DNA of 64,000 bases from a virus, in IMG/VR virus record IMGVR_UViG_3300043427_002950, positions 62,001 to 126,000 of that record. One strand, given 5' to 3'. How positions within the stretch are numbered: the first letter of the stretch is position 1; every line of letters starts with the position of its first letter. Below, in pieces: positions 6,562 to 37,956 of this stretch. The position numbers were made by a program, and so were the translations under genes. The notes beneath the pieces were generated by a model, which searched no databases, was not told where the DNA came from, and saw only the letters and a program-made list of their open reading frames with translations.

Positions 6562-9258
6562 ATGACAAGAAATAGATACAACACAGGAAGATCTCTCAGA
6601 AGAGATGCAACTGGAATTACCAGTGATAGATATAGTTACATTGGATTAGATCAGGTTGAACCTCATCTTGGTGATCCTTCGGTTGGTATCGCATCTACTG
6701 GTAATAATCCGCCAGGATTGGGACTTCCAAGATCAACTTATGTTTTAGCAGCTAGACCTGGAGATCCGAGAAGATATTGGATCGATCCATTTGATTTGGA
6801 TACTGACGGCATTCAAGGTCTGCAGGGAACTCAGGGTTCTCAAGGTATGCAAGGCAATCAAGGCACCCAAGGTATGCAGGGTCTACAGGGTGCCTTGAGT
6901 AATTTCCAAGGAACCCAAGGGAGACAGGGAACTCAAGGTCTTCAGGGAAATCAAGGGAGACAAGGAACTCAAGGACTGCAAGGAGCACTTAGCAATTTCC
7001 AAGGAACTCAGGGAACAGCAAGTGGACAAGGTACTCAAGGTCTTCAAGGTCTTCAGGGAAATCAAGGAGTTCAAGGACCACAAGGAACTCAAGGATTCCA
7101 AGGGACAATAGGATCTCAGGGATACCAAGGTGTTCAAGGAATTGCAAATCAAGGTATTAGAGGAGATCAAGGTGTTCAAGGAGCTTTAAGTAATTTCCAA
7201 GGAACCCAAGGTGTTAATGGTCAACAAGGATTGCAAGGATTGCAAGGATTGTCCAACCAAGGTTTTCAGGGAATATCTGGACAAGCAGTATTTAAAGGAG
7301 ATCAAGGTGTTCAAGGTCTTCAAGGTGTTCAGGGTCCATTAAGTAATTTCCAAGGAACACAAGGAAGGCAAGGTCTTCAAGGTGTTCAAGGAGTTCAAGG
7401 TCTTCAGGGAAGGCAAGGTATTCAGGGTAATCAAGGTTTTCAAGGTGCCCAAGGATTTCCTGGAAGTGCTCAAGGAAATCAAGGAACACAGGGCGTTCAG
7501 GGACAAATTGGAAACTTCCAAGGAACTCAAGGTAGACAAGGTGCTCAAGGAGTTCAAGGAGTTCAAGGTCTTCAGGGAAGGCAAGGTGGTCAAGGAGTTC
7601 AAGGAATTCAAGGCAGTCAAGGTTTTTCAGGAACTTCTCAAGGTGTTCAAGGAACACAAGGATCCCAAGGCGTTCAAGGTCCACTAAGTAATTTCCAAGG
7701 TGTCCAAGGTCTTCAAGGTCTTTCTGGATCTTTACAAGGTCTTCAAGGAGAACAAGGCGTTCAAGGACTGCAAGGACTGCAAGGAAATCAAGGCGTTTCT
7801 GGTCAAAGTTTTAATCAAGGTCTCCAAGGAAGGCAAGGTCTTCAAGGAGTTCAAGGTCAAATTGGAAACTTCCAAGGAACTCAAGGTGTTCAAGGAAGAC
7901 AAGGAACACAAGGAACTATAGGAAATCAGGGATTCCAAGGAAGACAAGGAATACAAGGAACACAAGGTTTTCAAGGTGTTCAGGGGAATCAAGGTGTTCA
8001 GGGAAATCAAGGTATTCAAGGAAGAATTGGAACTTCTATTATTATTATTGGAACAGCCGCAAATATTTCCTCACAGTCTCCAGATCCATCCACTTACTTA
8101 ACAGCTACTTTTCCAGGTGCTCAACCAGGAAATGGTGTTGTTGATAGTGTTACCAATGAAGTCTGGGTATTGCAAGCCAATGGAACAACATGGGTTAATG
8201 TTGGAGATATTTCTATACAAGGTCTTCAAGGTCTTCAAGGTCCTCAAGGTGCTCAAGGATTCCAAGGAACACAAGGTAGACAAGGTGTTCAAGGTGTTCA
8301 AGGCATTCAAGGACTTCAAGGAAGACAAGGAAATCAAGGTGTTCAAGGTCTTCAAGGAATTCAAGGTCTTGCGGCAGCAAAACAATTGGGTGGTAAATTC
8401 TTATATGATACTGTACAGACAATAGCAGATCCTACTGGAAATGGATATTTTAGACTTAGCACTGCCTGGACTGGAGCTTTTACTCAGTTTGCAATAGACG
8501 AAACTGATTTTGAAGGAAATTCAATTGTATCGATACTGGATGCCGTTGAGGCTGTAAATAATCCACAAAAAGCTATCTTTACGTTTACAAAAATTGGAGA
8601 CTCTAATACTTTTGCTTCATTCTTTGTTACCAATAGAATTACTGATGGAGCAGCATTCAGAAGTTATTTTGTAACGAAAATTAGTTCTAATGGATCTCCC
8701 GTTCTTAATGATCAATTTAATTTAGTAGTGTCATTTGTAGGTGCTCAAGGAACCCAAGGCAGACAAGGACTTCAAGGATTACAGGGAGTTCAAGGAAATC
8801 AAGGAGTTCAGGGCCTTCAGGGTGGAAACTCTGAAACATCTTTGATTGTTGCACTTGGAGATGAATTTACAAACATTGGAATTGGAACAAGTGTAGTAAC
8901 ATTTAGGGTTCCATTTAAGTGTAGAATTACAGAACCACCAACAATTTCACTTTCATCTGCTGCAGTTGTTGGAATTACCAGTGTAGATGTTTTATATGCA
9001 GATAGAAATGCTAGCCCAGCTTCCTTTAATTCTTGGACAAGTATATACTCAAGTCGGACAACAGTAGCAAATATCGCAGTAGGAAACTACCAAAGTGAAA
9101 CTGGATTTGTTAATACCCCAACTCTCTTAAATTCACCAACAACATTCCCAAATCAAGTTTTAAATAGAAATGATCAATTAAGATTTGATATTACTGGAAT
9201 AGGAACTGGAGGAAAGGGATTGAAAGCAATAGTTTATTATTCTAAGGTATCACCATAA
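6562..9258 (+). CDS. Collagen-like (Gly-X-Gln) tail fibre protein (cassette 1)
   Basis: 898 aa. A globular N-terminus (about 1-80, containing YSYIGLDQVEPHLGDPS) leads into long runs of Gly-X-Gln triplets at about 85-490. These are interrupted at intervals by short LSNFQG or IGNFQG insertions. A non-collagen segment (about 493-550) follows, then triplets (about 555-605), a beta-rich domain (about 610-725), a short triplet run, and a C-terminal domain of about 145 aa. The regular Gly every third residue predicts a trimeric collagen triple helix, though with almost no proline. The C-terminal domain (VNTPTLLNSPTTFP..., NDQLRFDITGIG) resembles the C-terminus of the gene at 24506 in pattern. Late virion fibre gene by context. 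Confidence 0.85.
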   Translation: MTRNRYNTGRSLRRDATGITSDRYSYIGLDQVEPHLGDPSVGIASTGNNPPGLGLPRSTYVLAARPGDPRRYWIDPFDLDTDGIQGLQGTQGSQGMQGNQGTQGMQGLQGALSNFQGTQGRQGTQGLQGNQGRQGTQGLQGALSNFQGTQGTASGQGTQGLQGLQGNQGVQGPQGTQGFQGTIGSQGYQGVQGIANQGIRGDQGVQGALSNFQGTQGVNGQQGLQGLQGLSNQGFQGISGQAVFKGDQGVQGLQGVQGPLSNFQGTQGRQGLQGVQGVQGLQGRQGIQGNQGFQGAQGFPGSAQGNQGTQGVQGQIGNFQGTQGRQGAQGVQGVQGLQGRQGGQGVQGIQGSQGFSGTSQGVQGTQGSQGVQGPLSNFQGVQGLQGLSGSLQGLQGEQGVQGLQGLQGNQGVSGQSFNQGLQGRQGLQGVQGQIGNFQGTQGVQGRQGTQGTIGNQGFQGRQGIQGTQGFQGVQGNQGVQGNQGIQGRIGTSIIIIGTAANISSQSPDPSTYLTATFPGAQPGNGVVDSVTNEVWVLQANGTTWVNVGDISIQGLQGLQGPQGAQGFQGTQGRQGVQGVQGIQGLQGRQGNQGVQGLQGIQGLAAAKQLGGKFLYDTVQTIADPTGNGYFRLSTAWTGAFTQFAIDETDFEGNSIVSILDAVEAVNNPQKAIFTFTKIGDSNTFASFFVTNRITDGAAFRSYFVTKISSNGSPVLNDQFNLVVSFVGAQGTQGRQGLQGLQGVQGNQGVQGLQGGNSETSLIVALGDEFTNIGIGTSVVTFRVPFKCRITEPPTISLSSAAVVGITSVDVLYADRNASPASFNSWTSIYSSRTTVANIAVGNYQSETGFVNTPTLLNSPTTFPNQVLNRNDQLRFDITGIGTGGKGLKAIVYYSKVSP
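6811..8040 (+). repeat. 9-bp coding repeat encoding Gly-X-Gln triplets
   Basis: Variants of CAAGGNNNN repeat in a 9-nt period and encode collagen-like triplets in the gene starting at 6562. The period is broken by in-frame insertions encoding (A/P)LSNF or QIGNF. Copies differ mostly at synonymous sites and at the X residue. Confidence 0.9.
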
Positions 9259-16982: not shown

Positions 16983-19900
16983 ATGGCAAAAAATTACCTA
17001 AGCAATCGTCAACGCAGAGTTAATATTGGTATTGTTTCATATACGGAAAATGAAACAGTACTGTCGATTGCTGCTGGTAAAGTTGGAGTAGGAACAAATA
17101 ATGCAATATTAGATTTACATGTAGAAGGAAAAGGATATTTTTCAGATGCAGTTGCAATAGGAACAGAAACTCCTCAGGGAGCTGCTTTATGGGTCGATGG
17201 AGATGGATATTTTACGGGGGTAGTTACTGCAAGAACATTTTTTGCAGGTCCAACAGAAATTACTGGGGGGCAAATTGTTGATGAAGCTGCAATTCAAAAG
17301 TTAAGGACACAAACCTTATTTGTTGCTGGAATTACAACATTTTTAAATGGAACTGTAAGTATTGGAGTAGGAACTGGAGTAACAACTGGAACACCAAATC
17401 AGTTATTTCAAGTTTATAGTGGAGCATATATTAATGGTTCTGTAGGAATAGGAACAACTATTGTATATTCCGACTCCAAATTACATGTTGCTGGCAGTTT
17501 GAAATTAGACGGAACAGTATACGATAAAGATGGATTTGGTGGGAATTTAGATGACCTTCTTTATTCAAATGGCGATGGAACTGTTTCTTGGAAAACTGCT
17601 TTACAAGGTACTCAGGGTACTCAAGGTCTTCAAGGCGCATTAAGTAATTTTCAAGGAACTCAGGGTGTTCAAGGAGTTCAAGGTCTCCAAGGTAATCAGG
17701 GAGTTCAAGGTCTTCAAGGTCTTCAAGGACACCAGGGAACTCAAGGAGTTCAAGGATTGCAAGGAAATCAGGGAGTTCAAGGTCTTCAAGGTCTTCAAGG
17801 ACACCAGGGAACTCAAGGAGTTCAAGGAGTTCAAGGTCTCCAAGGTAATCAGGGAGTTCAAGGTCTTCAAGGTCTTCAAGGACACCAGGGAACTCAAGGA
17901 GTTCAAGGATTGCAAGGAGATCAAGGTGTTCAAGGTCTTCAGGGAAATCAAGGAGTCCAGGGAACACAAGGTCTTCAGGGTTTCCAAGGAAATCAGGGAG
18001 TTCAAGGTCTTCAAGGTCTTCAAGGACACCAGGGAACTCAAGGAGTTCAAGGATTGCAAGGAGATCAAGGTGTTCAAGGTCTTCAAGGTCTTCAAGGACA
18101 CCAGGGAACTCAAGGAGTTCAAGGATTGCAAGGAGATCAAGGTGTTCAAGGTCTTCAAGGTCTTCAAGGACACCAGGGAACTCAAGGAGTTCAAGGATTG
18201 CAAGGAGATCAAGGTGTTCAAGGTCTTCAGGGAAATCAAGGAGTCCAGGGAACACAAGGTCTTCAGGGTTTCCAAGGAAATCAGGGAGTTCAAGGAATAC
18301 AAGGTCTTCAGGGAAATCAAGGAGTTCAAGGTCTTCAAGGAAATCAGGGAGTCCAGGGAGTCCAGGGAGTCCAAGGTCTCCAGGGAAATCAAGGAGTTCA
18401 AGGTCTTCAAGGAAATCAGGGAGTCCAGGGAGTCCAGGGAGTCCAAGGTCTCCAAGGAAATCAGGGACTCCAAGGCAATCAGGGAGTCCAGGGAGTCCAA
18501 GGTCTTCAGGGAAATCAAGGAGTTCAAGGAACTCAGGGACTCCAAGGCAATCAGGGAGTCCAGGGAGTCCAAGGTCTTCAGGGAAATCAAGGAGTTCAAG
18601 GAACTCAGGGACTCCAAGGCAATCAGGGAGTCCAGGGAGTCCAAGGTCTTCAGGGAAATCAAGGAGTTCAAGGAACCCAAGGTCTTCAAGGCAATCAAGG
18701 AGTTCAAGGAACACAAGGTCTTCAAGGTAATCAAGGAGTCCAAGGAACCCAAGGTCTTCAAGGCAATCAAGGAGTTCAGGGCAATCAAGGAACCCAAGGT
18801 GTTCAGGGTTTACAAGGAAATCAAGGAGTTCAAGGAAATCAGGGACTCCAAGGTAATCAAGGAGTTCAAGGAACTCAGGGACTCCAAGGTAATCAAGGAG
18901 TTCAAGGAACTCAGGGACTCCAAGGTAATCAAGGAGTACAAGGAACACAAGGTCTTCAAGGTAATCAAGGAGTTCAAGGTCTTCAAGGTAATCAAGGAGT
19001 CCAGGGAACTCAGGGACTTCAAGGTAATCAAGGAGTTCAAGGAAATCAGGGAGTCCAAGGAATACAAGGTCTTCAAGGTTTCCAAGGTGTCCAAGGTGTT
19101 CAAGGTCTCCAAGGAAATCAGGGAGTCCAAGGAATACAAGGTCTTCAAGGTTTCCAAGGTGTCCAAGGTGTTCAAGGTCTCCAAGGAAATCAGGGAGTCC
19201 AAGGAATACAAGGTCTTCAAGGTTTCCAAGGTGTCCAAGGTGTTCAAGGTCTCCAAGGAAATCAAGGTGTTCAAGGTGTTCAAGGTCTCCAAGGTTTCCA
19301 AGGAACTCAAGGAACCCAAGGAGTTCAAGGTCTTCAAGGAAATCAGGGAGTTCAAGGAACACAAGGTCTTCAAGGTTTCCAAGGTGTTCAAGGAACACAA
19401 GGACTTCAGGGGAATCAGGGAGTTCAAGGAACACAAGGTCTTCAAGGTTTCCAAGGTGTTCAAGGAACACAAGGACTTCAGGGGAATCAGGGAGTTCAAG
19501 GAACACAAGGTCTTCAAGGTTTCCAAGGCGTTCAGGGTGTCCAAGGATTACAGGGAAATCAAGGAGTCCAAGGTCTCCAAGGAAATCAGGGAGTTCAAGG
19601 TGTTCAAGGAACTCAGGGTCTCCAAGGCAATCAAGGGGTTCAAGGAACACAGGGTCTTCAAGGTTTCCAAGGTGCTCAAGGAACTCAGGGTGTACAAGGT
19701 CTCCAGGGAAATCAGGGAGTTCAAGGAACTCAGGGATTACAAGGAAATCAGGGAGTTCAAGGTGTTCAGGGTCTCCAGGGAAATCAGGGAGTTCAAGGAG
19801 TTCAAGGTCTCCAAGGAAATCAAGGAGTTCAAGGTGTTCAAGGAACCCAAGGTCTCCAAGGCAATCAAGGAGTCCAAGGTGTCCAAGGTGTCCAAGGATT

Positions 19901-21524
19901 ACAAGGAAATCAGGGAGTCCAAGGTGCCCAAGGATTACAAGGAAATCAGGGAGTCCAAGGTGTCCAAGGATTACAAGGAAATCAGGGAGTCCAAGGTGTC
20001 CAAGGTCTCCAGGGAAATCAAGGAGTTCAAGGTGTTCAAGGAACCCAAGGTCTCCAGGGAAATCAGGGAGTTCAAGGAACTCAGGGATTACAAGGAAATC
20101 AGGGAGTTCAAGGAGTTCAAGGTCTCCAAGGAAATCAAGGAGTTCAAGGTGTTCAAGGAACCCAAGGTCTCCAAGGCAATCAAGGAGTTCAAGGAGTTCA
20201 AGGTGTTCAGGGTCTCCAAGGAAATCAGGGAGTTCAAGGTGTTCAAGGAACCCAAGGTCTCCAAGGTAATCAAGGAGTTCAAGGAGTTCAAGGTCTCCAA
20301 GGAAATCAAGGTGTCCAAGGTGTCCAAGGAAATCAGGGTGTCCAAGGTGTTCAAGGTCTTCAAGGAAATCAGGGTGTCCAAGGTGTTCAAGGTCTTCAAG
20401 GAAATCAGGGTGTCCAAGGTGTTCAAGGTCTCCAGGGAGTTCAAGGAAATCAAGGAGTTCAGGGAGTCCAAGGTCTCCAAGGTAATCAAGGTGTTCAAGG
20501 TCTTCAAGGAAATCAGGGTGTCCAAGGTGTCCAAGGTCTCCAGGGAGTTCAAGGTCTCCAAGGTGTTCAAGGTCTTCAAGGAAATCAGGGAGTCCAAGGT
20601 GTCCAAGGTCTTCAAGGAAATCAAGGAGTTCAAGGTGTCCAAGGGCTCCAAGGAAATCAAGGAGTTCAAGGTGTCCAAGGTGTCCAAGGATTACAAGGAA
20701 ATCAGGGAGTCCAAGGTGTCCAAGGTGTTCAAGGTCTCCAAGGAAATCAAGGAGTTCAAGGTGTCCAAGGTGTCCAAGGATTACAAGGAAATCAGGGAGT
20801 CCAAGGTGTCCAAGGATTACAAGGAAATCAGGGTGTTCAAGGCGTTCAAGGTCTTCAAGGAAATCAGGGAGTCCAAGGTGTCCAAGGATTACAAGGAAAT
20901 CAGGGTGTTCAAGGCGTTCAAGGTCTTCAAGGAAATCAGGGAGTCCAAGGTGTTCAAGGTTTACAAGGAAATCAGGGAGTTCAAGCAACTCAAGGACTCC
21001 AGGGTGTTCAAGGATTGCAAGGTCTTCAAGGCGCACTTAGCAATTTCCAGGGAACACAAGGAACACAAGGAAATCAGGGATTACAAGGAACACAAGGAAA
21101 ACAAGTATCAATTCCAGATCAAACAGTCATAATTGCATTTGAAGAGGTGTTTGATGGGTCTAGAACTACATTTACTCCATATGATAAAGTATTATTTGCA
21201 AATCAAGGATATTCTGTTGGATCTGGAAATCTTGCACGATTCATAAATAATGAGATAGACAGTTTGGCAAGATTTATACTTTCTGTCGGTGGAATTATTC
21301 AAGAACCAGATCCATCAAATAATCGTGGATTTAACACCAATCAAATTGGTGGTGGTGGAAATAATAAAGCAGCAGACCCAATTACTATCGCATTTGTTGA
21401 GGCACCAAAAGTTACAGATTCCTTCTTTGGGTATGCTGTTAAATCTACAAATTCCCCAACAAATATAAATCAATTTGGAACAGTTACAGATTCTATAGTT
21501 TATTCAATCATATTCGGAGTATAA
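16983..21524 (+). CDS. Very long collagen-like (Gly-X-Gln) tail fibre protein (cassette 2)
   Basis: 1513 aa. Residues 1-205 carry fibre motifs of the type VGVGTNNAILDLHVEG, VSIGVGTG and VGIGTT, ending with DDLLYSNGDGTVSWKTALQG. From about 207 to 1375 the protein is an almost uninterrupted (Gly-X-Gln) array of roughly 380 triplets with X mostly Val, Leu, Asn or Thr, flanked at both ends by a GALSNFQG interruption. The C-terminal about 135 aa (ISIPDQTVIIAFEEVF-like start, IGGGGNNKAADPITIAFVEA) is a globular cap. This predicts a fibre far longer than the cassette-1 homologue. No proline occurs in the array. Virion surface fibre by family. Confidence 0.85.
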   Translation: MAKNYLSNRQRRVNIGIVSYTENETVLSIAAGKVGVGTNNAILDLHVEGKGYFSDAVAIGTETPQGAALWVDGDGYFTGVVTARTFFAGPTEITGGQIVDEAAIQKLRTQTLFVAGITTFLNGTVSIGVGTGVTTGTPNQLFQVYSGAYINGSVGIGTTIVYSDSKLHVAGSLKLDGTVYDKDGFGGNLDDLLYSNGDGTVSWKTALQGTQGTQGLQGALSNFQGTQGVQGVQGLQGNQGVQGLQGLQGHQGTQGVQGLQGNQGVQGLQGLQGHQGTQGVQGVQGLQGNQGVQGLQGLQGHQGTQGVQGLQGDQGVQGLQGNQGVQGTQGLQGFQGNQGVQGLQGLQGHQGTQGVQGLQGDQGVQGLQGLQGHQGTQGVQGLQGDQGVQGLQGLQGHQGTQGVQGLQGDQGVQGLQGNQGVQGTQGLQGFQGNQGVQGIQGLQGNQGVQGLQGNQGVQGVQGVQGLQGNQGVQGLQGNQGVQGVQGVQGLQGNQGLQGNQGVQGVQGLQGNQGVQGTQGLQGNQGVQGVQGLQGNQGVQGTQGLQGNQGVQGVQGLQGNQGVQGTQGLQGNQGVQGTQGLQGNQGVQGTQGLQGNQGVQGNQGTQGVQGLQGNQGVQGNQGLQGNQGVQGTQGLQGNQGVQGTQGLQGNQGVQGTQGLQGNQGVQGLQGNQGVQGTQGLQGNQGVQGNQGVQGIQGLQGFQGVQGVQGLQGNQGVQGIQGLQGFQGVQGVQGLQGNQGVQGIQGLQGFQGVQGVQGLQGNQGVQGVQGLQGFQGTQGTQGVQGLQGNQGVQGTQGLQGFQGVQGTQGLQGNQGVQGTQGLQGFQGVQGTQGLQGNQGVQGTQGLQGFQGVQGVQGLQGNQGVQGLQGNQGVQGVQGTQGLQGNQGVQGTQGLQGFQGAQGTQGVQGLQGNQGVQGTQGLQGNQGVQGVQGLQGNQGVQGVQGLQGNQGVQGVQGTQGLQGNQGVQGVQGVQGLQGNQGVQGAQGLQGNQGVQGVQGLQGNQGVQGVQGLQGNQGVQGVQGTQGLQGNQGVQGTQGLQGNQGVQGVQGLQGNQGVQGVQGTQGLQGNQGVQGVQGVQGLQGNQGVQGVQGTQGLQGNQGVQGVQGLQGNQGVQGVQGNQGVQGVQGLQGNQGVQGVQGLQGNQGVQGVQGLQGVQGNQGVQGVQGLQGNQGVQGLQGNQGVQGVQGLQGVQGLQGVQGLQGNQGVQGVQGLQGNQGVQGVQGLQGNQGVQGVQGVQGLQGNQGVQGVQGVQGLQGNQGVQGVQGVQGLQGNQGVQGVQGLQGNQGVQGVQGLQGNQGVQGVQGLQGNQGVQGVQGLQGNQGVQGVQGLQGNQGVQATQGLQGVQGLQGLQGALSNFQGTQGTQGNQGLQGTQGKQVSIPDQTVIIAFEEVFDGSRTTFTPYDKVLFANQGYSVGSGNLARFINNEIDSLARFILSVGGIIQEPDPSNNRGFNTNQIGGGGNNKAADPITIAFVEAPKVTDSFFGYAVKSTNSPTNINQFGTVTDSIVYSIIFGV
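17606..21105 (+). repeat. 3.5-kb array of 9-bp units encoding Gly-X-Gln
   Basis: CAAGGNNNN units tile this stretch with very few breaks. Higher-order units (27, 63, 72 nt) recur, for example a three-copy 72-nt tandem at 19056-19271. The array keeps several other frames free of stops on both strands, which creates long false ORFs. Confidence 0.95.
19056..19271 (+). repeat. Three tandem 72-bp units within the collagen array
   Basis: Units begin at 19056, 19128 and 19200. The first two are identical over 72 bp and the third matches for 63 bp before diverging. Each encodes the same eight triplets starting QGI. The identity at synonymous positions points to recent duplication. Confidence 0.85.
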
Positions 21525-25969: not shown

Positions 25970-25971
25970 TC

Positions 25972-26662: not shown

Positions 26663-27658
26663 ATGACTGTAGATCCAAATAATCTGGTAAAACTTGCTAT
26701 TCAAAATGGAGGAAGTATTCATCCTCTTGTTATTCCATCTAAAGATTTAAAGGGTCCAGCTTTAATGAACCCTTCAATTTATGTGGATGGGGATAAAATT
26801 TGGGTAAATCTTAGAAATATTAATTACACATTATATCATTCAGAAACAAAAAAGTTTGAGCATCATTGGGGTCCTTTAGTTTATATTCATCCAGAAAATG
26901 ATCTTCGTCTTCGCACATGGAATATTATGTGTGAACTTGATGAGGACATGAGAATCAAAAAATACCATCATATTGATACGACAAAATTTCCCAATAAAGA
27001 ACTTTGGGATTTTGTTGGGTTAGAAGATGTTCGTATTTTTAGATGGGAAGGAAAATTTTATACTTGTGGAGTTAGACGAGATTTAGAAACCACAGGTATT
27101 GGTAGAATGGAACTATGTGAACTTGAGATTGGTGATGGATATGTAAAAGAAATAAATCAAATTCGTATTCCTACCCCTGGAAATGATGATTCTTATTGCG
27201 AGAAAAATTGGATGCCAATTCTCGATATGCCATATCACTTCTTAAAGTGGACTAATGGAACTGAAATTGTAAAATATGATTTAGAATCTAAAAAAACAGA
27301 AAAAGTTGTCTCACATCATTGGAAAGATCTTGGATGTATTGATCTTCGTGGAGGATCTCAAGTTCTTAGGTTTGATGAAAAGCATAGATTTTGTTTAACA
27401 CATGAAACATTTTTAACTCAAAGTCCTCATTATAGAAAAGATGGAACTTACAGACATAGATTTGTTGTCTTTGATGAAGATTGGAACATTGTTAAAGTTT
27501 CTAAAAGATTCTCATTTTTGAATGCGGAAATAGAATTTGCAGTTGGAATGACTGAATATAAAGAAGATTATCTAATTACTTTTGGATTTCAAGATAATGC
27601 ATCATATCTTTTAAAAGCATCTAAGGAATTTGTTAAAAATTATATTTTTGAGGATTGA
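26663..27658 (+). CDS. Beta-propeller glycosidase-like protein (GH43/GH130 type)
   Basis: 331 aa with about five repeated blade-like segments. GLEDVRIFRWEGKFYTCGVR (about 118-137) resembles the E-D-x-R-I catalytic region of GH130-like phosphorylases. Other blade motifs are EKNWMPILDMPYHFLKW (about 180-196) and DLRGGSQVLRFDEKHRFCLT (about 230-249). Such folds act on glycosidic bonds or phosphorolytic sugar substrates; activity here is unproven. It heads a run of carbohydrate- and lipid-related genes, supporting a role in modifying host or virion glycans. Confidence 0.6.
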   Translation: MTVDPNNLVKLAIQNGGSIHPLVIPSKDLKGPALMNPSIYVDGDKIWVNLRNINYTLYHSETKKFEHHWGPLVYIHPENDLRLRTWNIMCELDEDMRIKKYHHIDTTKFPNKELWDFVGLEDVRIFRWEGKFYTCGVRRDLETTGIGRMELCELEIGDGYVKEINQIRIPTPGNDDSYCEKNWMPILDMPYHFLKWTNGTEIVKYDLESKKTEKVVSHHWKDLGCIDLRGGSQVLRFDEKHRFCLTHETFLTQSPHYRKDGTYRHRFVVFDEDWNIVKVSKRFSFLNAEIEFAVGMTEYKEDYLITFGFQDNASYLLKASKEFVKNYIFED

Positions 27659-27660
27659 TT

Positions 27661-28779
27661 ATGAATATCATTATCCCAATGGCGGGACTTGGTAGTAGGT
27701 TTTCTAAAAATGGAATTAAAACACCTAAACCTTTGATTAAAGTTAATGGAAAAACTCTTATTGAACATTCTGTAGAATCTCTTGGTATTCCTGGAAGATA
27801 TATTTTCATTACCCGAAATTATGAAGATCCTCAATACAATGAAGAACTGACAAAGATTCTTAAAAAATTAGATCCAAATTGTGAAGAAATTCGCATTGAT
27901 AATGTTACAAGTGGATGCAGTGAAACTTGTCTTTATGCAAAGCATTTAATTGATAATGAAGAAGAGTTGATTATTACGAATTGCGATCAACTCATGGATT
28001 GGGATCCTAATGCTTTTTTGGAAGAAGTCTCAGACAATCTTTCCGTAGATGGAGCAGTTGTATTATTTAAATCAAAAGATCCTAAAAATAGTTTTGCTAA
28101 AATTAAAGAAAATTATACTAATGGATGCAAAATTGTAAAGATTGTGGAAAAAGATCCAATTAGTGATAATGCTCTTGTTGGAATACATTATTGGGCAAGA
28201 GGAAAAGATTTTGTAGAGTCTTCTGAAAATTTACTTAAACATTTTAGAATAAGTGGACTTCCAGAATGTTATATCTCAGAAACTTATAATTATTTGATTG
28301 AAAGAAATTATTCTATTGTTCCATTTTTTATTCCCAAAAATAGTTATATTCCATTAGGAACTCCCGAAGATGTTTCAATTTATCTTGGAAAGTTAAAGGA
28401 ATTTTATACAAATAAACCAAAAACAATTTTTTGTGATTTGGATGGAACAGTGTTAAAACACTGTCATAAATTTAGTGATCTAAATCAAATTGATCCAGAA
28501 GTTCTTCCTGGAGTTAATAATAAATTTAATGAATGGGATTCTAAAGGATATAAAATTATTTTAACAACTGCTAGAAAAGAATCTGCCAGAGAAATGACAG
28601 AGAATCATCTTAAATCTCTGGGAATATGTTGGGATCATTTGATTATGGGTGTTTCTAGTGGAGTTAGAGTTTTAATCAATGATAAACTCAAAGATGAAGA
28701 CAACGATAGATCTGTAGCAATTAATTTAATTACTGACTCTGGATTTGATAGTGTTGATTGGGAGAAATATAATCTATGA
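27661..28779 (+). CDS. Nucleotidyltransferase - HAD phosphatase fusion
   Basis: 372 aa from the ATG at 27661 (GAGG about 7 bp upstream). An in-frame TTG 6 bp earlier is less likely. Residues 1-235 are a sugar-nucleotidyltransferase fold: IIPMAGLGSRFSKNG (G-x-G-x-R loop), PKPLIKVNGK, and NCDQLMDWDP as a metal-binding segment. From about 256, FCDLDGTVLKH is a HAD motif I, followed by ILTTARKESAREMTE (motif II, T/R type) and GVRVLINDKL. It would make an activated sugar or alcohol and hydrolyse a phosphate intermediate. Its ATGA overlap with the cupin gene supports one pathway. Confidence 0.75.
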   Translation: MNIIIPMAGLGSRFSKNGIKTPKPLIKVNGKTLIEHSVESLGIPGRYIFITRNYEDPQYNEELTKILKKLDPNCEEIRIDNVTSGCSETCLYAKHLIDNEEELIITNCDQLMDWDPNAFLEEVSDNLSVDGAVVLFKSKDPKNSFAKIKENYTNGCKIVKIVEKDPISDNALVGIHYWARGKDFVESSENLLKHFRISGLPECYISETYNYLIERNYSIVPFFIPKNSYIPLGTPEDVSIYLGKLKEFYTNKPKTIFCDLDGTVLKHCHKFSDLNQIDPEVLPGVNNKFNEWDSKGYKIILTTARKESAREMTENHLKSLGICWDHLIMGVSSGVRVLINDKLKDEDNDRSVAINLITDSGFDSVDWEKYNL

Positions 28780-29102
28780 AATTAGATAGACTTGATAGAA
28801 TGATTGGTGGATGGTTTATTGGAAACTTTGATTGTGCGTATAAAACTGATGCAGTTGAAGTTTCTTATAAAACTCATCCGAAGGGTGAGCAATGGGATAT
28901 TCATTACCATGAAAAAGTCACAGAAATAAATTTGTTGGTTCGTGGTAGAATGATTCTTCAAGGAGTGGAATTAAATGCTGGAGATATTTTTACTTTAACC
29001 CCTTTTGAAATTGCAGATCCAGAATTTTTAGAAGATTGTGAAATAGTATGTGTGAAACTTCCTGGTATACAAAACGATAAAATTTCCTTAACAAAAAAAT
29101 GA
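28776..29102 (+). CDS. Cupin-domain protein
   Basis: 108 aa. The metal-site pattern WDIHYHEKVTEINLLVRGRM (H...H...E) followed by LNAGDIFTLTPFEIADPEF is a compact single-domain cupin. Such proteins are sugar epimerases/isomerases or small-molecule sensors. It overlaps both neighbours by 4 bp, so it is translationally coupled with the nucleotidyltransferase-HAD and GDPD-like genes. Confidence 0.7.
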   Translation: MKLDRLDRMIGGWFIGNFDCAYKTDAVEVSYKTHPKGEQWDIHYHEKVTEINLLVRGRMILQGVELNAGDIFTLTPFEIADPEFLEDCEIVCVKLPGIQNDKISLTKK

Positions 29103-29575
29103 AAATAATCGCACATAGAGGAAATCTCGATGGACCAAATCCATTGAGAGAAAATAGTTTAGACTATATTGATGAGGCCATTAAATCTGGATTTGATGTG
29201 GAAATTGATATTAGAGAAGATAACGGACTTTTTCTTGGACATGATAATCCTCAGCATCATGTGACTTTTGATTGGTTAATACGAAGAAAAAAATATCTTT
29301 GGATTCATTGTAAAAATGTTCAAGCACTTGACTTTTTTTCTGAAACATCTTTTAATTATTTTTGGCATGAAAATGATCAATATACAATCACAAGTCATGG
29401 AATAGGGTGGGTGTATCCAGGCAAAAAACCATATCATAAATCCATAATTGTGCTTCCAGAAATTACAGATTTTTATCATTCTGAAGAAAGTAATGGTTAT
29501 CTTACAAATTCAAAAGGAATTTGCACGGATTTTTGCAACGACTACAAAAGATTGTTTTTCAAATCGGTTAAATAA
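29099..29575 (+). CDS. Glycerophosphodiester phosphodiesterase-like protein
   Basis: 158 aa. The N-terminal half carries the GDPD signature: IAHRGN (residues 4-9), EN-S (18-20), G-x-D-x-E-x-D-I-R (31-39) and LGHD (46-49). The family uses these His and Glu/Asp residues for acid-base catalysis and metal binding. The protein is shorter than typical GDPDs (about 240 aa), so the barrel may be minimal or truncated. Substrate is unknown; teichoic-acid-like or phospholipid head groups are possible from the family. Confidence 0.65.
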   Translation: MKIIAHRGNLDGPNPLRENSLDYIDEAIKSGFDVEIDIREDNGLFLGHDNPQHHVTFDWLIRRKKYLWIHCKNVQALDFFSETSFNYFWHENDQYTITSHGIGWVYPGKKPYHKSIIVLPEITDFYHSEESNGYLTNSKGICTDFCNDYKRLFFKSVK

Positions 29576-29596
29576 AGAAAATATAGTTTTGACATT

Positions 29597-32500
29597 ATGA
29601 GTGTATCATTAATTTGTTCTTGCAAAAATAGAATTGATGCTTTACGGGTTTCTTTAAATTCTTGGGTTAAATTTAAAGAAATAACAGAAATAATAATTGT
29701 GGATTGGGATTCTGATGAATCAATTGATTTTTTACTTTCCCATGATCCGAGAATAAAAATTATTAAAGTCTCTGATGAGAAATATTTTAATCAACCTCAA
29801 CCTTTAAATCTTGCGGCTGATTTTGCTACAGGAGAATATATTTTAAAAGTTGATTGTGATTATGTAATAAATCCATATTATAATTTTTTTGAAAGATATT
29901 TCCCTAAAGATAATGAATTTGTCTGTGGAGAATATGAACATGCTGTTGATGAATCTCAATTTCCAGAAGATTATAATTACATGTTACTGGGGAGAGAAGG
30001 ATTGCTCCTATACGATAAATCATATTCTCCATTTTATAAGTATTTGATTGGACTTCTTTTTACCAAGAAAGAAAATTTTAATAAAATAAATGGGTATAAT
30101 GAGTTATTGCACAACTATTATGCGTTTGAAGATGAAGAAATATTTAAAAGATTGGAATTATCTGGACTCAAAAAAGTAAAAATTGATTTTGATAATTCTA
30201 TAATTCATATTCCCCATCCAGATAGTAAAAGGGTTGAAAATTTTAAAGGACATGTAGATCAACCTTACATTAGAGAAGAAATATATAATAACCTTAAAGA
30301 AATTTACTCAGAAGATCAACTTGAGTGGGAAGTTGATTATGTCTTGTCTACACTTCATGTGTCATTGAATAAAAATGACATTGGTAAAATTGATAATTTT
30401 TATATTAAAAGGATTCATGAATGGAAATTGGAAGAAATATCCGAGAGATATTTTCATGCAAAAAAAGTAAATAATATAAAAAAACTTGAAGATTTTCCAA
30501 AAGTAAATTTTATTAGTCTTGAAGAAAGTAAAGATAGGCAAAAAAATTTAATAGAACAATTTAAAAAAAATGGAGTAACTGAATTTAATCCATTAATATC
30601 TAAAAGATTTGATCAGTCTAATGATATAGTTACTGGATCTCAAGTTAATATTTTAGATAGTGGGACTAAAGGATGTGTAGTTTCACATATCAAAATGATT
30701 AAAAAATGGTATGATGAATCTGATGAAAAATATGGATTCTTTTGTGAAGATGATCTAAGTTTGGAATCTTTAAAATATTGGGATTTTACCTGGAAAGAGT
30801 TCATTGAAAATCTTCCAGATGATGCTGACTGCGTTCAACTTTATTGTATTAGGGATGAACAAAGAGATTTAAAATTTGAAAATAGATGGCAAACCGATTG
30901 GTCAGTAACTGCTTATATTCTCACTAAAGAATACGCAAAACGTATTATTGATCAATATTATGTTTCAGAAAATGAATTTAATTTGGAAGTTTATGATACT
31001 GGATGGTATCCAATGCCAGAAAATGTTTTATTCTGGGGACATGGTAAAGTATATTCAGTCAATTTATTTCTAGAAGATCTTAAATTAGGGACCACGTTTT
31101 CTGAAATAGATAGTGGTATTAAGGAAAATCATCTCGATAGCTATACTTACAATTTAAATTGGTGGAAAAATAATTCAAAAAATAATTTAAATTTAATTTT
31201 TGGGAAAAATAATTTAAAAAAATTAAAAGTAGTTCAAATTGGTTGTAATAGAGGGTATGATGATTTATATGAGTATTTGTCTTTAAATTATAAAGAAAAT
31301 GAAATAGAATTTGGACTATTTGTAGATGCAAATAAAATACATATAGATTCTGTAAAAGAATGCTATAAAAAATATAATAATATTTTTGTAGAAAATTTGG
31401 GAATAAAAAGTCCATCGCATGAACATGATCATCTAACCTTTTATTATCATCCTGAAGAATCAAATTACGAAATCGCATCTTGCAAAAAAGAACATATTCA
31501 AAAATGTATTGATTGGCCTGGATCTTCCCTCACGGATGGAAATATTGAAACTTTTGAAATTTCCTGTATTACATTGGAAGAATTATTTGATAGATACAAT
31601 CTTAAAGAAATTGATTGGTTATTATTGGACATTGAAGGTCTAGAATCGGATATATTACTTAATTTTAATTGGGAAAAATATTTGATAAAAAAAGTAGAAT
31701 TTGAATACCTTCACTTGGATGAGAATGCTGAAAAAATTCAAAGTTTGATGTATAATATGGGATATAGACAAGTAAAATCACTTTCAGCAAATGATTGGGC
31801 ATTTGAAAAAGTAGAAAATTTAGGAGAAAAATCAATGGTGCATGTAAAAAATCAAAACTATGTTCAAATTGTTCTGGATATTGAAGAATTGCTGACTGAA
31901 TATTCATCTGATACTGAAAATCCAGAACTTAATTTTAAAATTGGACTTTGGTATGAAGTTCATGGTCAAGATGCGGCTGCACTTTCTTTCTTCTTAAGAG
32001 CAGCAGAAAGATTTGAAAACGATCATTATGCTTATGAATCTTTAATTCATGGTGCTTATTGTTATGATAGGCAAGGAACTAGAGATATGACCGCAAAAGG
32101 AATTTTACAACAAGCATTGGTATTATTACCACATAGACCAGAAGCATATTATCATCTGAGTAATTTCTGCAGAAAAAGAGGATTTTGGCAAGATTGTTAT
32201 ATTTACGCATCAACAGCTTTAAATTTTTCCAGTTTTGATTCTATTCCCAATTTTAAAACGGATGTTCATTTTCCTGGGAAATTTGCTATTATGTACGAGC
32301 AAGCACTTGCTGCTTGGGATTGGGGTAAAATTGAAGAATCTTATAATATTTTGATGGATATTAAAGATAATTATGAAATTCCAGAAGAATATAAAGTTCA
32401 AGTAGAAAAAGAACTAGAAAAATTTAAGAACATTGAGTGCTTCTTTACCGAGCAATATCGAGATATACTGGAAAATCTTTCCTGCAATAAAAATAAAAAT

Positions 32501-33322
32501 GAAGAAACCAATAGTGTAAATAACGATATTGGAAAAATTGATATTGTCCTTGCTGGGCATTTTGATGAAGAGACTCCAAATATTATAAATTCATACCTTA
32601 AACTAGATTTTATTAATAATATAATTCTTTCTACTTGGAAGGGACAGTATGACGGATCTATTGATCATGATAGAGTTAAAATTGTTGAAATAGAAAAACC
32701 AATTCCAGGAACTGACAATAGAAATTTACAAATAGCAAGTGCTCATGCTGGACTTGAATTAGTTACAACTGAGTATTGCGCCAAAATGAGAACCGATCAA
32801 AGATATTATGATGAAAGTATGCATAATATGTACAATTACCTGTTGAATAATCGAGAATTTGAAGATCAGATTTTTGTTGCTGGAATATATCCAAATCTTT
32901 TGTTTCATCCAAGAGATCATGTTTTTTGGGGAAAAAGTTGTAATGTAAAAGAATTGTATGATATTCCATTAGAATATAATGGTCTTTCTGATAAAATTAA
33001 AATATCAAAAGAAAATCTTCACAAATATTATCCTTTCTTTGTTAGAAATGAAACTTATATTGGAGCAAGATATTGCTCTAAATTTGATGAAACAATCAAC
33101 ATCATGTTACTTGAACCTGAAAAATATTTACATGACAATTGCGGAGGATGGAATCAATCCCATCAAGTTAGTCAAAATGTTACTACTAGAGCATTTAAGT
33201 CTTTCCCCAGAGAAGGAATTGATCTGGAATGGAACCGTAAAGGATTGCAACATTATCCATATGATGACCAGAAAAATGGATACGGTGAGTGCTGGGCAGA
33301 AGATTTTCAAATTGAGGATTGA
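29597..33322 (+). CDS. Five-module glycan-modifying megaprotein (GT2 - GT25 - FkbM - TPR - WavE-like)
   Basis: 1241 aa. About 1-290: family-2 glycosyltransferase (SLICSCKNRIDALRVSL, IIIVDWDSDES, LKVDCDYV as metal site near 85-91). About 300-530: GT25/LPS-type glycosyltransferase (VNFISLEESKDRQKN at about 302, GCVVSHIKMI near 358, FFCEDDLS near 380). About 540-735: FkbM-type methyltransferase (KVVQIGCNRGYDD near 543, WLLLDIEGLESDILLNF near 674). About 765-950: helical TPR-like repeats (NPELNFKIGLWYEV, HRPEAYYHLSNFCRKRGFW). About 980-1241: WavE-like region (IDIVLAGHFDEETPNIINS, AKMRTDQRYYDE). No frameshift is visible. It likely builds and methylates a surface glycan; substrates are unknown. Confidence 0.75.
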   Translation: MSVSLICSCKNRIDALRVSLNSWVKFKEITEIIIVDWDSDESIDFLLSHDPRIKIIKVSDEKYFNQPQPLNLAADFATGEYILKVDCDYVINPYYNFFERYFPKDNEFVCGEYEHAVDESQFPEDYNYMLLGREGLLLYDKSYSPFYKYLIGLLFTKKENFNKINGYNELLHNYYAFEDEEIFKRLELSGLKKVKIDFDNSIIHIPHPDSKRVENFKGHVDQPYIREEIYNNLKEIYSEDQLEWEVDYVLSTLHVSLNKNDIGKIDNFYIKRIHEWKLEEISERYFHAKKVNNIKKLEDFPKVNFISLEESKDRQKNLIEQFKKNGVTEFNPLISKRFDQSNDIVTGSQVNILDSGTKGCVVSHIKMIKKWYDESDEKYGFFCEDDLSLESLKYWDFTWKEFIENLPDDADCVQLYCIRDEQRDLKFENRWQTDWSVTAYILTKEYAKRIIDQYYVSENEFNLEVYDTGWYPMPENVLFWGHGKVYSVNLFLEDLKLGTTFSEIDSGIKENHLDSYTYNLNWWKNNSKNNLNLIFGKNNLKKLKVVQIGCNRGYDDLYEYLSLNYKENEIEFGLFVDANKIHIDSVKECYKKYNNIFVENLGIKSPSHEHDHLTFYYHPEESNYEIASCKKEHIQKCIDWPGSSLTDGNIETFEISCITLEELFDRYNLKEIDWLLLDIEGLESDILLNFNWEKYLIKKVEFEYLHLDENAEKIQSLMYNMGYRQVKSLSANDWAFEKVENLGEKSMVHVKNQNYVQIVLDIEELLTEYSSDTENPELNFKIGLWYEVHGQDAAALSFFLRAAERFENDHYAYESLIHGAYCYDRQGTRDMTAKGILQQALVLLPHRPEAYYHLSNFCRKRGFWQDCYIYASTALNFSSFDSIPNFKTDVHFPGKFAIMYEQALAAWDWGKIEESYNILMDIKDNYEIPEEYKVQVEKELEKFKNIECFFTEQYRDILENLSCNKNKNEETNSVNNDIGKIDIVLAGHFDEETPNIINSYLKLDFINNIILSTWKGQYDGSIDHDRVKIVEIEKPIPGTDNRNLQIASAHAGLELVTTEYCAKMRTDQRYYDESMHNMYNYLLNNREFEDQIFVAGIYPNLLFHPRDHVFWGKSCNVKELYDIPLEYNGLSDKIKISKENLHKYYPFFVRNETYIGARYCSKFDETINIMLLEPEKYLHDNCGGWNQSHQVSQNVTTRAFKSFPREGIDLEWNRKGLQHYPYDDQKNGYGECWAEDFQIED

Positions 33323-33369
33323 CAAATTAGATATAATCGGTTACAGTTCTGTCAACCACTACAAACTCC

Positions 33370-34080
33370 ATGAATCTTGAAGAAATTGCCGATCTAATTC
33401 AAAATAATTGTGATTGGGACTCATTTGTTGGATTTTGTATGGACATTCATAATGATATAGGATTTAAAAGTAGATCTGATAATATGTTGGTCTCTTCCAT
33501 GAGAGAAAAAGCATTCTCTCATTTTTGTTCAATACCTTTGCAACATATTGATGAAAATGGAAGAGACTATAAACTTTTTAAATCGCCAATTGAATATAAA
33601 AGTCAGCAAAATATCTTTAGAGTAAGAAAACCTAATGATAAAAATGGAAAACTTTTTGAAAGAGGAATAGTACAAAAAGATGATACCTCTCCAATTAAAA
33701 TGAAAAATTTTTATGGGTCGGGAGAAGCCACCATACACTCTTTTCTTGAAGAATGTAAGTATAATAGTACATGTGAATTTATTATTTTAAATCAAACTAA
33801 TTGTTTTGACTTTAGAGTTGGTTTGGTTAAAGATGAATATGCTAGAACAAGATATTATGCTCAGGGGGATGGAATTTATGCTGATTTTGAGAAAGATCAC
33901 ATTCACTTTTTAGATCTTTCAAATATAAATCCAGTCACTTTAAATAATAATATCTTTCTGGAAAATTCATATACAACTATTAAGTTGAATTGCCCAATGT
34001 CATACTCTCTCCAGAGCCTCCTTGAAGCAAAATTTAATTTGTATATGAAAATTTCTGAAGAGATGAAAAAAATAAAGTAG
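33370..34080 (+). CDS. Unrecognised protein
   Basis: 236 aa soluble protein, AT-rich like the glycan genes before it. No family is recognised with confidence. The stretch FKSPIEYKSQQNIFRVRKPN (E-x-K with basic surroundings) and the two-domain look are compatible with a nuclease fold, but a PD-(D/E)XK core cannot be demonstrated. A terminator lies 23 bp after its stop, so it closes the transcription unit that began near 26.6 kb. Confidence 0.6.
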   Translation: MNLEEIADLIQNNCDWDSFVGFCMDIHNDIGFKSRSDNMLVSSMREKAFSHFCSIPLQHIDENGRDYKLFKSPIEYKSQQNIFRVRKPNDKNGKLFERGIVQKDDTSPIKMKNFYGSGEATIHSFLEECKYNSTCEFIILNQTNCFDFRVGLVKDEYARTRYYAQGDGIYADFEKDHIHFLDLSNINPVTLNNNIFLENSYTTIKLNCPMSYSLQSLLEAKFNLYMKISEEMKKIK

Positions 34081-34090
34081 TCGGATTAAA

Positions 34091-34148
34091 AACTGGCACA
34101 CTGACCCCCCTCCTGGAACCCACCAGGGGGGTCTTTTCATGCTATAAT
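34091..34148 (+). promoter_or_regulatory. AACTGGCACA box + terminator hairpin + TATAAT (junction A)
   Basis: AACTGGCACA (34091-34100) precedes a G/C-rich hairpin, and TATAAT lies at 34143-34148. Box-to-(-10) distance is 52 bp, about one helical turn more than at the other eight junctions. No -35 hexamer fits. The -10 abuts an ATG at 34149, so initiation here would favour the in-frame ATG at 34170. Confidence 0.55.
34103..34137 (+). terminator. Intrinsic terminator after the glycan island
   Basis: GACCCCCCT...CCAGGGGGGTC inverted repeat (34103-34133) with a small internal bulge, followed by TTTT. It ends the upstream AT-rich unit and overlaps the promoter region of the helicase. Confidence 0.8.
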
Positions 34149-34169
34149 ATGACCACACACGACAGACCG

Positions 34170-35402
34170 ATGATTCAACTCCGACCGCACCAACAACGTG
34201 CTCTCGATGCCATGCTCAAGCATAGCAAGGGTCAACTCGTCATGCCGACTGGTGCTGGCAAGACCCTGACCATGATCTTCAATGCCATTGGGCAGATGAA
34301 GACCTCCTCTGAGTCCATGCACTTCGTAGTGGTTGCTCCACGCATCCTCCTGGCATCTCAGCTGTGCTCTGAGTTCCTTGAGCACATCGACAATGCCCAC
34401 ATCATTCATGTGCATTCTGGTGAAACCGATCACTTTAGCACGACCAAGACCGCAATGATCCATGCTTGGCACCATGCCGTTGATGGTCATCGCATTACCT
34501 TCACCACTTACAACTCCCTTCAGAAGGTTGTTGATTCTGGTGTCCATATCAATACCATCTACTTTGATGAGGCACACAATAGTGTCAAGAAGTCCTTTTA
34601 TACTTCCACTGAGATTCTTAGTGACAAGGCAGATCGTTCCTACTTCTTCACCGCAACTCCCAAGCACAGTGCTGCCTGGAACAAACCTGGCATGAACAAT
34701 GCTCAGGTCTATGGCAACGTCATCATCAACGTTCCTGCTCCAGAACTGATTGAGAATGGTTCTATCATTCCTCCTGTTGTTAATGCAGTCAACATCAACA
34801 TGGAACGTGACAAGGAGTTCGGTGCAGAACGTGACTGCATGACTCTGCTTGACACCATCATCAACGGCGACAACATGCAGAAAGTGCTTGTTGCTGCTCC
34901 CAACACTAAGGTTCTGATGCGAATGCTTGCAGAAACCGACTTCATGCCTGAGATTCAATCCTACGGGTATGATGTGCTGTGGATCACTTCTAAGCATGGT
35001 GCCTTTATCAACAATGAGAAAGTCACCCGTGAGGAGTTCTTCAACGTTCTGAGTCAGTATGGTCATGATCCCGAGAAGAAGTTTGTTATCCTTCACTACA
35101 GCATTCTGTCTGAAGGCATCAATTGCCCTGGATTGACAGCATGTGTTATGATGCGTCAGATGGACGTAATCCAGATGTGTCAAACGATTGGTCGTGTGAT
35201 CCGTCTTCATCCCGAAGACGCATCCAACATTCGTAGTGGTAAGGTTGCTGCTGGTGATCTTGACAACTACACTAAGTCGTTTGGTCTCATTCATGTCCCT
35301 GTTTACTCCAACACTGGTATTGCAACTGCTCGTCGTCTTCAGGCAGTAGTCGATACCGTATTCACCGAAGGTCAACCCTGCATTGCTACTATCCAAAAAT
35401 GA
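34170..35402 (+). CDS. SF2 DNA helicase (DEAH type, UvsW/Res-like)
   Basis: 410 aa from the ATG at 34170; an ATG 21 bp upstream (34149) is alternative but sits directly on the -10 box. Numbering from 34149: Q-motif-like LRPHQQRALD, Walker A MPTGAGKT (32-39), motif II DEAH (140-143), motif III TATP (168-171), motif VI QTIGRVIR (345-352). It is a compact two-RecA-domain helicase similar to UvsW and type III restriction Res subunits, without obvious extra domains. Probable role in recombination-dependent replication or fork remodelling. Its GC content is much higher than that of the preceding genes. It overlaps the next gene by 4 bp. Confidence 0.85.
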   Translation: MIQLRPHQQRALDAMLKHSKGQLVMPTGAGKTLTMIFNAIGQMKTSSESMHFVVVAPRILLASQLCSEFLEHIDNAHIIHVHSGETDHFSTTKTAMIHAWHHAVDGHRITFTTYNSLQKVVDSGVHINTIYFDEAHNSVKKSFYTSTEILSDKADRSYFFTATPKHSAAWNKPGMNNAQVYGNVIINVPAPELIENGSIIPPVVNAVNINMERDKEFGAERDCMTLLDTIINGDNMQKVLVAAPNTKVLMRMLAETDFMPEIQSYGYDVLWITSKHGAFINNEKVTREEFFNVLSQYGHDPEKKFVILHYSILSEGINCPGLTACVMMRQMDVIQMCQTIGRVIRLHPEDASNIRSGKVAAGDLDNYTKSFGLIHVPVYSNTGIATARRLQAVVDTVFTEGQPCIATIQK

Positions 35403-35995: not shown

Positions 35996-35999
35996 AAAT

Positions 36000-36170
36000 A
36001 TGTTAGATGGATTTATTACTGACGATGGATACGCAGCAGTTCCTTTTGTAAATCAACTTATGGTGATTTACAATGGGCAACAACTAAAGGTTTGTAGGAC
36101 AGCAAAATCTGCTGCAAAATTTATCGCAGAGCACAGATCTCTTCCAAAATCTGGAACTGTTTTTAATTGA
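36000..36170 (+). CDS. Small unrecognised protein
   Basis: 56 aa (MLDGFITDDGYAAVPFVNQL ... EHRSLPKSGTVFN). It starts 4 bp after the previous stop. Its TGA stop overlaps a TTGACA promoter element used by the next gene. It resembles the small helix-strand proteins common in cyanophage accessory regions. Confidence 0.6.
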   Translation: MLDGFITDDGYAAVPFVNQLMVIYNGQQLKVCRTAKSAAKFIAEHRSLPKSGTVFN

Positions 36171-36195
36171 CAACTATCCCCTGACATATTAAAAT
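36167..36195 (+). promoter_or_regulatory. Sigma-70-type promoter TTGACA-17-TAAAAT
   Basis: TTGACA (36167-36172) overlaps the stop of the preceding gene. TAAAAT (36190-36195) overlaps the ATG at 36194. Transcripts begun here would start after that ATG, so either the 67-aa gene is read from upstream transcripts or this promoter serves the dehydratase gene. Confidence 0.55.
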
Positions 36196-37597: not shown

Positions 37598-37602
37598 CTA
37601 AT

Positions 37603-37610
37603 GCTAAATA
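37603..37610 (+). promoter_or_regulatory. Possible late-type box (GCTAAATA)
   Basis: GCTAAATA lies 20 bp before the ATG at 37631. It matches TATAAATA at six of eight positions, so it is a weak candidate. Confidence 0.3.
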
Positions 37611-37951: not shown

Positions 37952-37956
37952 ATTTC

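Follow-up and report, generated by a model that had tools for sequence, protein, structure and literature searches.

Among the closest described systems are viral proteins that carry several glycan-modifying domains in one polypeptide. In the chlorovirus PBCV-1, the 638-amino-acid (aa) protein A064R combines two glycosyltransferases with a methyltransferase and, according to enzyme assays, builds and methylates the end of the glycan on the virus's own capsid protein (PMC9614988). A second PBCV-1 protein, A111/114R, contains three putative glycosyltransferase domains (PMC7826918). In the parts of the cited papers drawn on here, chloroviruses are the source of every viral multi-domain glycosyltransferase-methyltransferase protein whose function has been tested. 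Here we describe a phage gene of related layout in the IMG/VR virus record IMGVR_UViG_3300043427_002950. The window, the whole 64,000-nucleotide stretch that was analysed, corresponds to bases 62001-126000 of this 127,876-base record, and its open reading frame (ORF) at 29597..33322 encodes a 1241-aa protein with GT2, GT25, FkbM, TPR, and WavE modules. We put at roughly 50% the probability that this gene specifies a phage-made glycan assembly enzyme whose likeliest acceptor is a virion fibre protein. The protein resembles A064R in uniting two glycosyltransferases and a methyltransferase in one viral polypeptide, a functional analogy taken from the papers only, and it resembles A111/114R in having several glycosyltransferase domains. 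A064R differs in belonging to an algal virus, in having three domains, the second of which is described as a new glycosyltransferase family, and in that no TPR is reported in the part of the paper cited. A111/114R serves the N-glycan core of an algal virus, and its abstract mentions no methyltransferase or TPR domain. The gene and its modules, with the evidence for each, are as follows.

29597..33322, + strand: multi-module protein GT2-GT25-FkbM-TPR-WavE, 1241 aa (ORF, Pfam, AlphaFold)
29597..30241, + strand: GT2 module, aa 1-215, GT-A fold, DxD at 86-88 and ED at 178-179 (PF00535, PF02709, AlphaFold)
30473..31186, + strand: GT25 module, aa 293-530, EDD at 384-386 (PF01755, PHROG 2835)
31223..31867, + strand: FkbM-type S-adenosylmethionine (SAM) methyltransferase module, aa 543-757 (PF05050, 2.4e-10)
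31880..32431, + strand: TPR superhelix, aa 762-945 (AlphaFold, fold search, alignment with the fetched locus L003)
32519..33304, + strand: WavE module, aa 975-1236, probably a third glycosyltransferase of GT-A type (PF07507, identity to L036, model)

The gene is a single open frame with zero internal stops or frameshifts across 3.7 kb, as an earlier note on this DNA had claimed, and Pfam supports four of the modules named in that note, each above its cut-off. With the TPR region supported by the model described below, every module that the note named has support, so the outcome by which it would have been refuted, a failure of two or more modules, did not occur. The GT2 module matches Glycos_transf_2 (PF00535) at aa 4-115 (E 2e-8, 34.6 bits against a cut-off of 23.3) and Glyco_transf_7C (PF02709), the galactosyltransferase-type second half of GT2, at aa 144-205 (E 1e-6, above the curated cut-off), and its fold matches include heparosan synthase, chondroitin polymerase, and GalNAc-T2. 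The GT25 module matches Glyco_transf_25 (PF01755) at aa 304-455 (E 2e-6, 28.2 bits against 24) and the glucosyltransferase family PHROG 2835 (4e-41), with Mimivirus R655 as its best single-domain fold match (Z 16.8, 190 residues, root-mean-square deviation (rmsd) 3.2). AlphaFold folded both modules confidently. Methyltransf_21/FkbM (PF05050) was found at aa 590-724 (E 2.4e-10, 41.3 bits against 22.7), in a module containing VVQIGCNRG and LDIEGLE, which we take to be the SAM-binding and DxEG motifs, and WavE (PF07507) at aa 1008-1125 (E 6e-8, 32.7 bits against 27). The TPR-like repeats are weak by sequence, with two listed TPR Pfam models under the cut-off (E 0.05 and 0.06), yet clear in the model: AlphaFold of residues 759-1241 (mean pLDDT 92) gives a paired-helix superhelix, mostly with pLDDT >90, followed by an alternating strand-helix domain, and the superhelix aligns with TPR-type chains at VIA-align Z up to 17.1. 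The protein is real and looks functional.

Foldseek with the GT2-GT25 part placed heparosan synthase 2 and K4 chondroitin polymerase at the top of its list, with TM-scores of only 0.19-0.29. These enzymes share tandem GT-A domains with the phage protein, but the two-domain alignments have rmsd >15, and both enzymes produce a repeating polymer. The TPR superhelix is a feature shared with the glycosyltransferase proteins GmaR, O-GlcNAc transferase (OGT), and SPINDLY (SPY) and with the capsule-synthesis multienzyme 8qoy, but the similarity is generic, at 11-20% identity and amid many other TPR proteins, and the catalytic domains of OGT and SPY are GT-B. The GT25 fold is shared with COLGALT1/GLT25D1 and with R655, a putative collagen glycosyltransferase that was earlier annotated as a lipopolysaccharide (LPS) enzyme and comes from a virus with collagen-like proteins (PMC9546862). 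COLGALT1/GLT25D1 differs in using hydroxylysine as its acceptor, a residue for which the phage repeats described below hold no lysine, and the activity of R655 is itself putative (PMC9546862). We considered and rejected membership of the collagen hydroxylysine glycosyltransferases, because the repeats of both candidate acceptors are free of lysine.

The residues expected to matter for catalysis are conserved. In an alignment of 29 sequences (A6), D86, D88, and D179 of GT2 and E384-D385-D386 of GT25 do not vary, and the conservation of E178 is 90% or higher; K1063, R1065, D1067, D1107, and H1108 of WavE are invariant in 42/42 non-gap rows; and the D and G of the DxEG-type motif of FkbM are invariant across 20 aligned sequences. 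Because the acidic motifs of GT2 and GT25 and the K-x-R-x-D and D-H of WavE do not vary among relatives, these three modules are likely to be catalytically active. The earlier note counted two glycosyltransferases; GT2 and GT25 bear this out, and WavE, on which it had not remarked in this respect, is probably a third, of GT-A type. This assignment draws on the strand order in the model and from an hhalign comparison of the WavE profile with that of GT2-GT25, in which KMRTDQ falls opposite the DxD segment (E 6e-4, probability only 27.7). Comparison of the WavE sequence with solved structures returned four chance-like matches at E 0.7 or worse, none of them credible. PDB fold searches with the C-terminal model gave lists occupied by TPR chains, and among the matches listed for this model in a viral fold library are two GT-A-annotated phage proteins and several FkbM/GT2 proteins, with the matched part unstated.

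The fusion is no one-off but belongs to a sizeable family of mix-and-match phage proteins. For a census of this family we made four viral scans and rescanned the loci with profiles grown from each module; all loci were fetched via modules of the 1241-aa protein, and one scan kept 80/172 relatives, so that the counts are not natural frequencies. The scans yielded 272 module-bearing ORFs, or 146 after 95% dereplication, and in 57 of the 146, the 1241-aa protein among them, a single ORF unites GT2-GT25 with TPR. Between GT25 and TPR, 31 of these 57 carry nothing, 18 have an insert that is 250 aa or longer, 7 have a second GT25, and 1, the 1241-aa protein, has FkbM. Beyond TPR, 28 have no tail module, 14 have FkbM, 7 have WavE, and 8 have something else, and six representatives carry an N-terminal FkbM. 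The 14 tail FkbM matches are partial and weak: in L037 and L113, the two Pfam-scanned representatives whose only FkbM is such a tail, they fall below the Pfam cut-off. Five of the 18 inserts were given to Pfam, and all five are GT17 (L079, L101, L094, L095, and L113). The earlier note's view that such enzymes are normally separate calls for qualification in the case of GT2-GT25-TPR, which is commonly fused among the fetched loci of uncultured phages, but the search for the same fusion elsewhere that it had proposed found the exact five-module order only once in the sample, in the 1241-aa protein itself.

This single occurrence, together with the possible omission of near-identical records from the searches and the lack of a second contig for comparison, leaves some room for an assembly chimera of unrelated genes. 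We regard a chimera as highly improbable, because four of the five modules occur in the same order in L003, L035, L036, L038, L048, and L128, and because FkbM is inserted in frame and flush relative to L003, which aligns with the 1241-aa protein except for a clean gap at FkbM (query 543 to 761 against L003 545 to 541). The rarity of FkbM between GT25 and TPR (1/57) and the frequent lack of a tail module (28/57) could instead mean that the protein is partly degenerate, with, for example, only GT2 and GT25 acting and FkbM or WavE carried along as a passenger of shuffling. This too is improbable, if less so, given the five WavE residues kept in every non-gap row, the invariant FkbM residues, and the uninterrupted frame.

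The modules differ in their nearest fetched relatives: the nearest WavE is the fused WavE of L036 (69% identity), the nearest FkbM lies in a separate FkbM-GT2 gene of L104 (43%), and the nearest GT2 modules are in L039 and L063 (60%), a pattern as expected of shuffling. Compared with the uncultured-phage GT2-GT25-TPR fusions as a whole, modules are ~47-69% identical in the closest relatives, the order is the same, and upstream genes are shared, but only the 1241-aa protein has FkbM between GT25 and TPR. The same parts also occur split. A separate WavE ORF lies no more than 3 bases from, or overlaps, the end of the TPR ORF in 11/34 lone-WavE representatives, and in L115 and L119 the modules are mostly runs of separate genes. 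That the same parts occur both fused and split suggests that the modules of the family act together. Since relatives divide these modules among adjacent genes, the single-polypeptide arrangement does not look essential.

That the protein assembles and caps a short glycan, as the earlier note had proposed, is the natural reading of this set of modules; the processivity suggested in that note would be a further, hypothetical property. In this process, GT2 and then GT25 would add successive sugars from nucleotide sugars, the WavE module would probably add a third, and FkbM would O-methylate a sugar and so cap the chain. The TPR superhelix may grip the acceptor protein or partner enzymes, and a nucleotidyltransferase-HAD gene three genes upstream could help to supply sugar donors. 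The acceptor would most likely be a virion fibre protein, and two collagen-like proteins, whose genes lie 8 and 20 kb upstream, are the first candidates.

16983..21524, + strand: collagen-like protein, 1513 aa, candidate acceptor (Pfam Collagen, 1.1e-187)
6562..9258, + strand: second collagen-like protein, 898 aa (111 Gly-X-Y triplets in runs of at least 8)

The 1513-aa protein contains 370 uninterrupted Gly-X-Gln triplets; long minus-strand frames over 16983-21524 are probably a by-product of this repeat. Collagen-like genes are present in 26/30 TPR-bearing viral records (23 above the Pfam cut-off), a hand-chosen set in which 26 records have GT2-GT25...TPR and 27 have GT25 and TPR in one ORF. 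In 20 WavE control records, where TPR presence was judged in the fetched stretch only, collagen-like genes occur in 2, exactly the two with TPR in that stretch, and in 0/18 of those without it there. Among cultured phages, both of those with a TPR gene have a collagen-like gene, compared with 3 of 14 cyanophages without one (S-PRM1, S-CAM7, and S-CAM9); these 14 controls were picked from search hit lists, and TPR absence was assigned from a tblastn search that matched two records. Fisher tests give P 1e-9 for 26/30 against 0/18, P 2e-5 for 30/34 against 3/14, and P 3e-4 for 27/34 against 3/14 when only above-cut-off matches are counted. In DSL-LC02, the genes for a homologue of the 331-aa protein described below, a TPR-FkbM protein, and an FkbM protein are flanked by a collagen-like gene on one side and a tail-fibre gene on the other. 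Among bacterial collagen-like proteins, BclA is a known glycoprotein (PMC8968730).

A more ambitious proposal, which we consider doubtful as a whole, is that many uncultured cyanophages possess a dedicated modular system that places a methyl-capped glycan on collagen-like virion fibres. In such a system, TPR would recruit the triple-helix protein and GT2 and GT25 would start a chain at Thr or Asn within the Gly-X-Gln repeats and extend it, while FkbM, WavE, GT17, and a second GT25 would be swapped between phages as a virion-surface code resembling antigenic variation. A phage family with the logic of the chlorovirus proteins, present in many uncultured phages, with swapped modules in two to three slots and tracking collagen-like genes, would make cyanophage virion glycosylation directly testable, and its mix-and-match layout is also a natural fusion set for studying the wiring of multi-step glycan enzymes.

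Several observations weigh against a glycan assembly enzyme acting on a virion fibre. Phage lineage confounds the link to collagen-like genes, as does the comparison of uncultured fragments with cultured genomes, and the link is therefore a lead only. Among cultured phages alone (2/2 against 3/14) the Fisher P is 0.08, and the three cultured phages named above carry a collagen-like gene without a TPR gene. Conversely, 4/30 TPR-bearing records lack a collagen-like gene, one of them 90.7 kb long. Neither candidate acceptor has a single lysine at X or Y of its 370 or 111 triplets, so that hydroxylysine glycosylation as in animal collagen is inapplicable to the repeats and Thr or Asn would be needed instead. 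The majority of the TPR fold matches are unrelated to glycosylation, which weakens the argument for a protein acceptor. For GT25, solved structures may be few and the R655 match may mirror the content of the PDB; for WavE, the case for a GT-A fold consists of the topology and a profile match that is weak; and in FkbM, pLDDT is <50 over most of 539-760 and the FkbM rows of relatives are misplaced in the alignment. The gene run in which the fusion lies has no late-promoter-like motif ahead of it, ATAAATA being absent from 21249-40586. In addition, the Pfam names of the GT25 and WavE families come from LPS synthesis.

These names fit a different acceptor. The gene could remodel host LPS or O-antigen during infection, for receptor masking or phage exclusion, in which case the acceptor would be a lipid-linked or LPS glycan and TPR would merely tether the enzymes. 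An LPS role has been proposed for pelagimyophage glycosyltransferases, some encoded within the host-recognition region (PMC7029224), and stand-alone GT25 genes sit in sugar clusters of other cyanophages. We treat this as a genuine possibility, although a less probable one, because TPR superhelices are found on the protein-glycosylating enzymes OGT, SPY, and GmaR, the TPR module tracks collagen-like genes, and the gene run adjoins virion structural genes; each of these facts would still be possible with an LPS acceptor.

To return to the locus of the proposed glycan assembly enzyme, the large gene is the last of a run of five overlapping or closely spaced genes. The first four overlap one another in succession by 4 bases, and the large gene begins 21 bases after the fourth. 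The earlier note had mentioned neither this run nor the collagen-like gene 8 kb upstream.

26663..27658, + strand: conserved 331-aa protein encoded at the head of the run (two cyanophages have homologues)
27655..28779, + strand: sugar-nucleotidyltransferase and HAD phosphatase fusion (PF00483 and PF03767 above cut-off)
28776..29102, + strand: 108-aa gene, phrog_24762 (PHROG match; no Pfam match)
29099..29575, + strand: 158-aa gene, phrog_34507 (PHROG match; no Pfam match above cut-off)

The 331-aa protein has no Pfam match above the cut-off (one below) and no PDB match, and its homologues in two cyanophages bear the names MGP protein and beta-mannosyltransferase; partly from these depositors' names, we presume it to be GH130-like. 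It is the best conserved product of the run, 63-76% identical in eligible fused relatives compared with 60% at best for the glycosyltransferase modules. Of the 35 fused representatives whose upstream sequence spans 3 kb or more, 29 have the 331-aa gene there, 6 have the 158-aa gene, and 34 have one or the other. The 331-aa gene and the TPR gene are adjacent in S-SCSM2R and DSL-LC02. By eye, we take the product of the 108-aa gene to be cupin-like. A DNA relative of the 158-aa gene in phage DSL-LC03 overlaps a coding sequence annotated as glycerophosphoryl diester phosphodiesterase, and clusters of separate genes for HAD, diesterase or hypothetical, glycosyltransferase, and glucosyltransferase proteins are found in the cultured phages DSL-LC03 and S-PRM1. 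A late promoter upstream of the run was rejected, as ATAAATA is missing there and is not enriched (14 found against 22.5 expected). Immediately after the fusion, at 33370-34080, lies a 236-aa gene that matches nothing in Pfam or PHROGs and nothing in the fetched relatives.

Beyond the fetched viral loci, a search of annotated phages matched 97/50,697 records, none over 80% of the protein, although records very near the window may be omitted; the same search with the protein of L079 gave identical numbers, again with none over 80%. A scan of cellular genomes returned 22 loci, of which 20 contain a GT2-module ORF (21 ORFs) and two, L169 and L187, have no passing ORF; none of the 21 ORFs carries any other of the five modules. 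In Cyanobacteriota, 5/386 genomes matched at E 1e-15 or better, over approximately the first 115 of 529 profile positions. Both cellular scans queried the GT2-GT25 part only, so that distant fusions could escape them. A bacterial origin of the fusion was rejected, as the matches in the cellular genomes scanned cover the GT2 part only. Literature searches, confined to open-licence PubMed Central papers, listed none whose title or abstract opening deals with the fusion family.

The virus record itself looks like a fragment of a T4-like cyanophage. Its genes include those for a tail tube, a baseplate, nucleotide-sugar epimerases, PhoH, and two proteins of the photosystem II D1 family, and its helicase, presumably UvsW-like, is closest to those of cyanophages (58% identity to S-SRM01). 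D1-family photosystem genes were found in 6/30 TPR-bearing records, so that a cyanophage identity should not be taken as given for every relative; these records are fragments. In the window, a 574-aa ORF at 53753-55477 has no match in PHROGs or annotated phages. In L197 (7983-10136), from phage DSL-LC02, a 717-aa protein combines TPR (by tblastn), an FkbM methyltransferase, radical SAM, and SPASM, and is annotated only as an FkbM family methyltransferase.

Several uncultured phages also encode a RuBisCO large-chain-like protein of 412-416 aa (PF00016, 1e-42) in or near their sugar genes.

L004, 4285-5523: RuBisCO-like gene
L035, 2653-3891: RuBisCO-like gene
L036, 580-1818: RuBisCO-like gene
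L063, 2568-3818: RuBisCO-like gene
L108, 3285-4523: RuBisCO-like gene
L135, 5403-6653: RuBisCO-like gene

These proteins are 88-94% identical to that of L004 over their full length, and their PDB matches are RuBisCO and RuBisCO-like proteins. The L004 protein keeps GVDFIKEDE, which we take to be the motif around the catalytic lysine. The RuBisCO-like protein has no match in annotated phages, and none was noticed in the window. Beyond the window in the same virus record, L015 holds a ribosomal protein S6 glutaminyl transferase PHROG gene (9755-10645) beside the two photosystem D1-family genes. Directly after it, at 10662-12953, a second multi-module protein of 763 aa joins an RXYLT1_C-like part (just below the cut-off), Methyltransf_24, and GT25 (just below the cut-off in Pfam, PHROG 5e-37).

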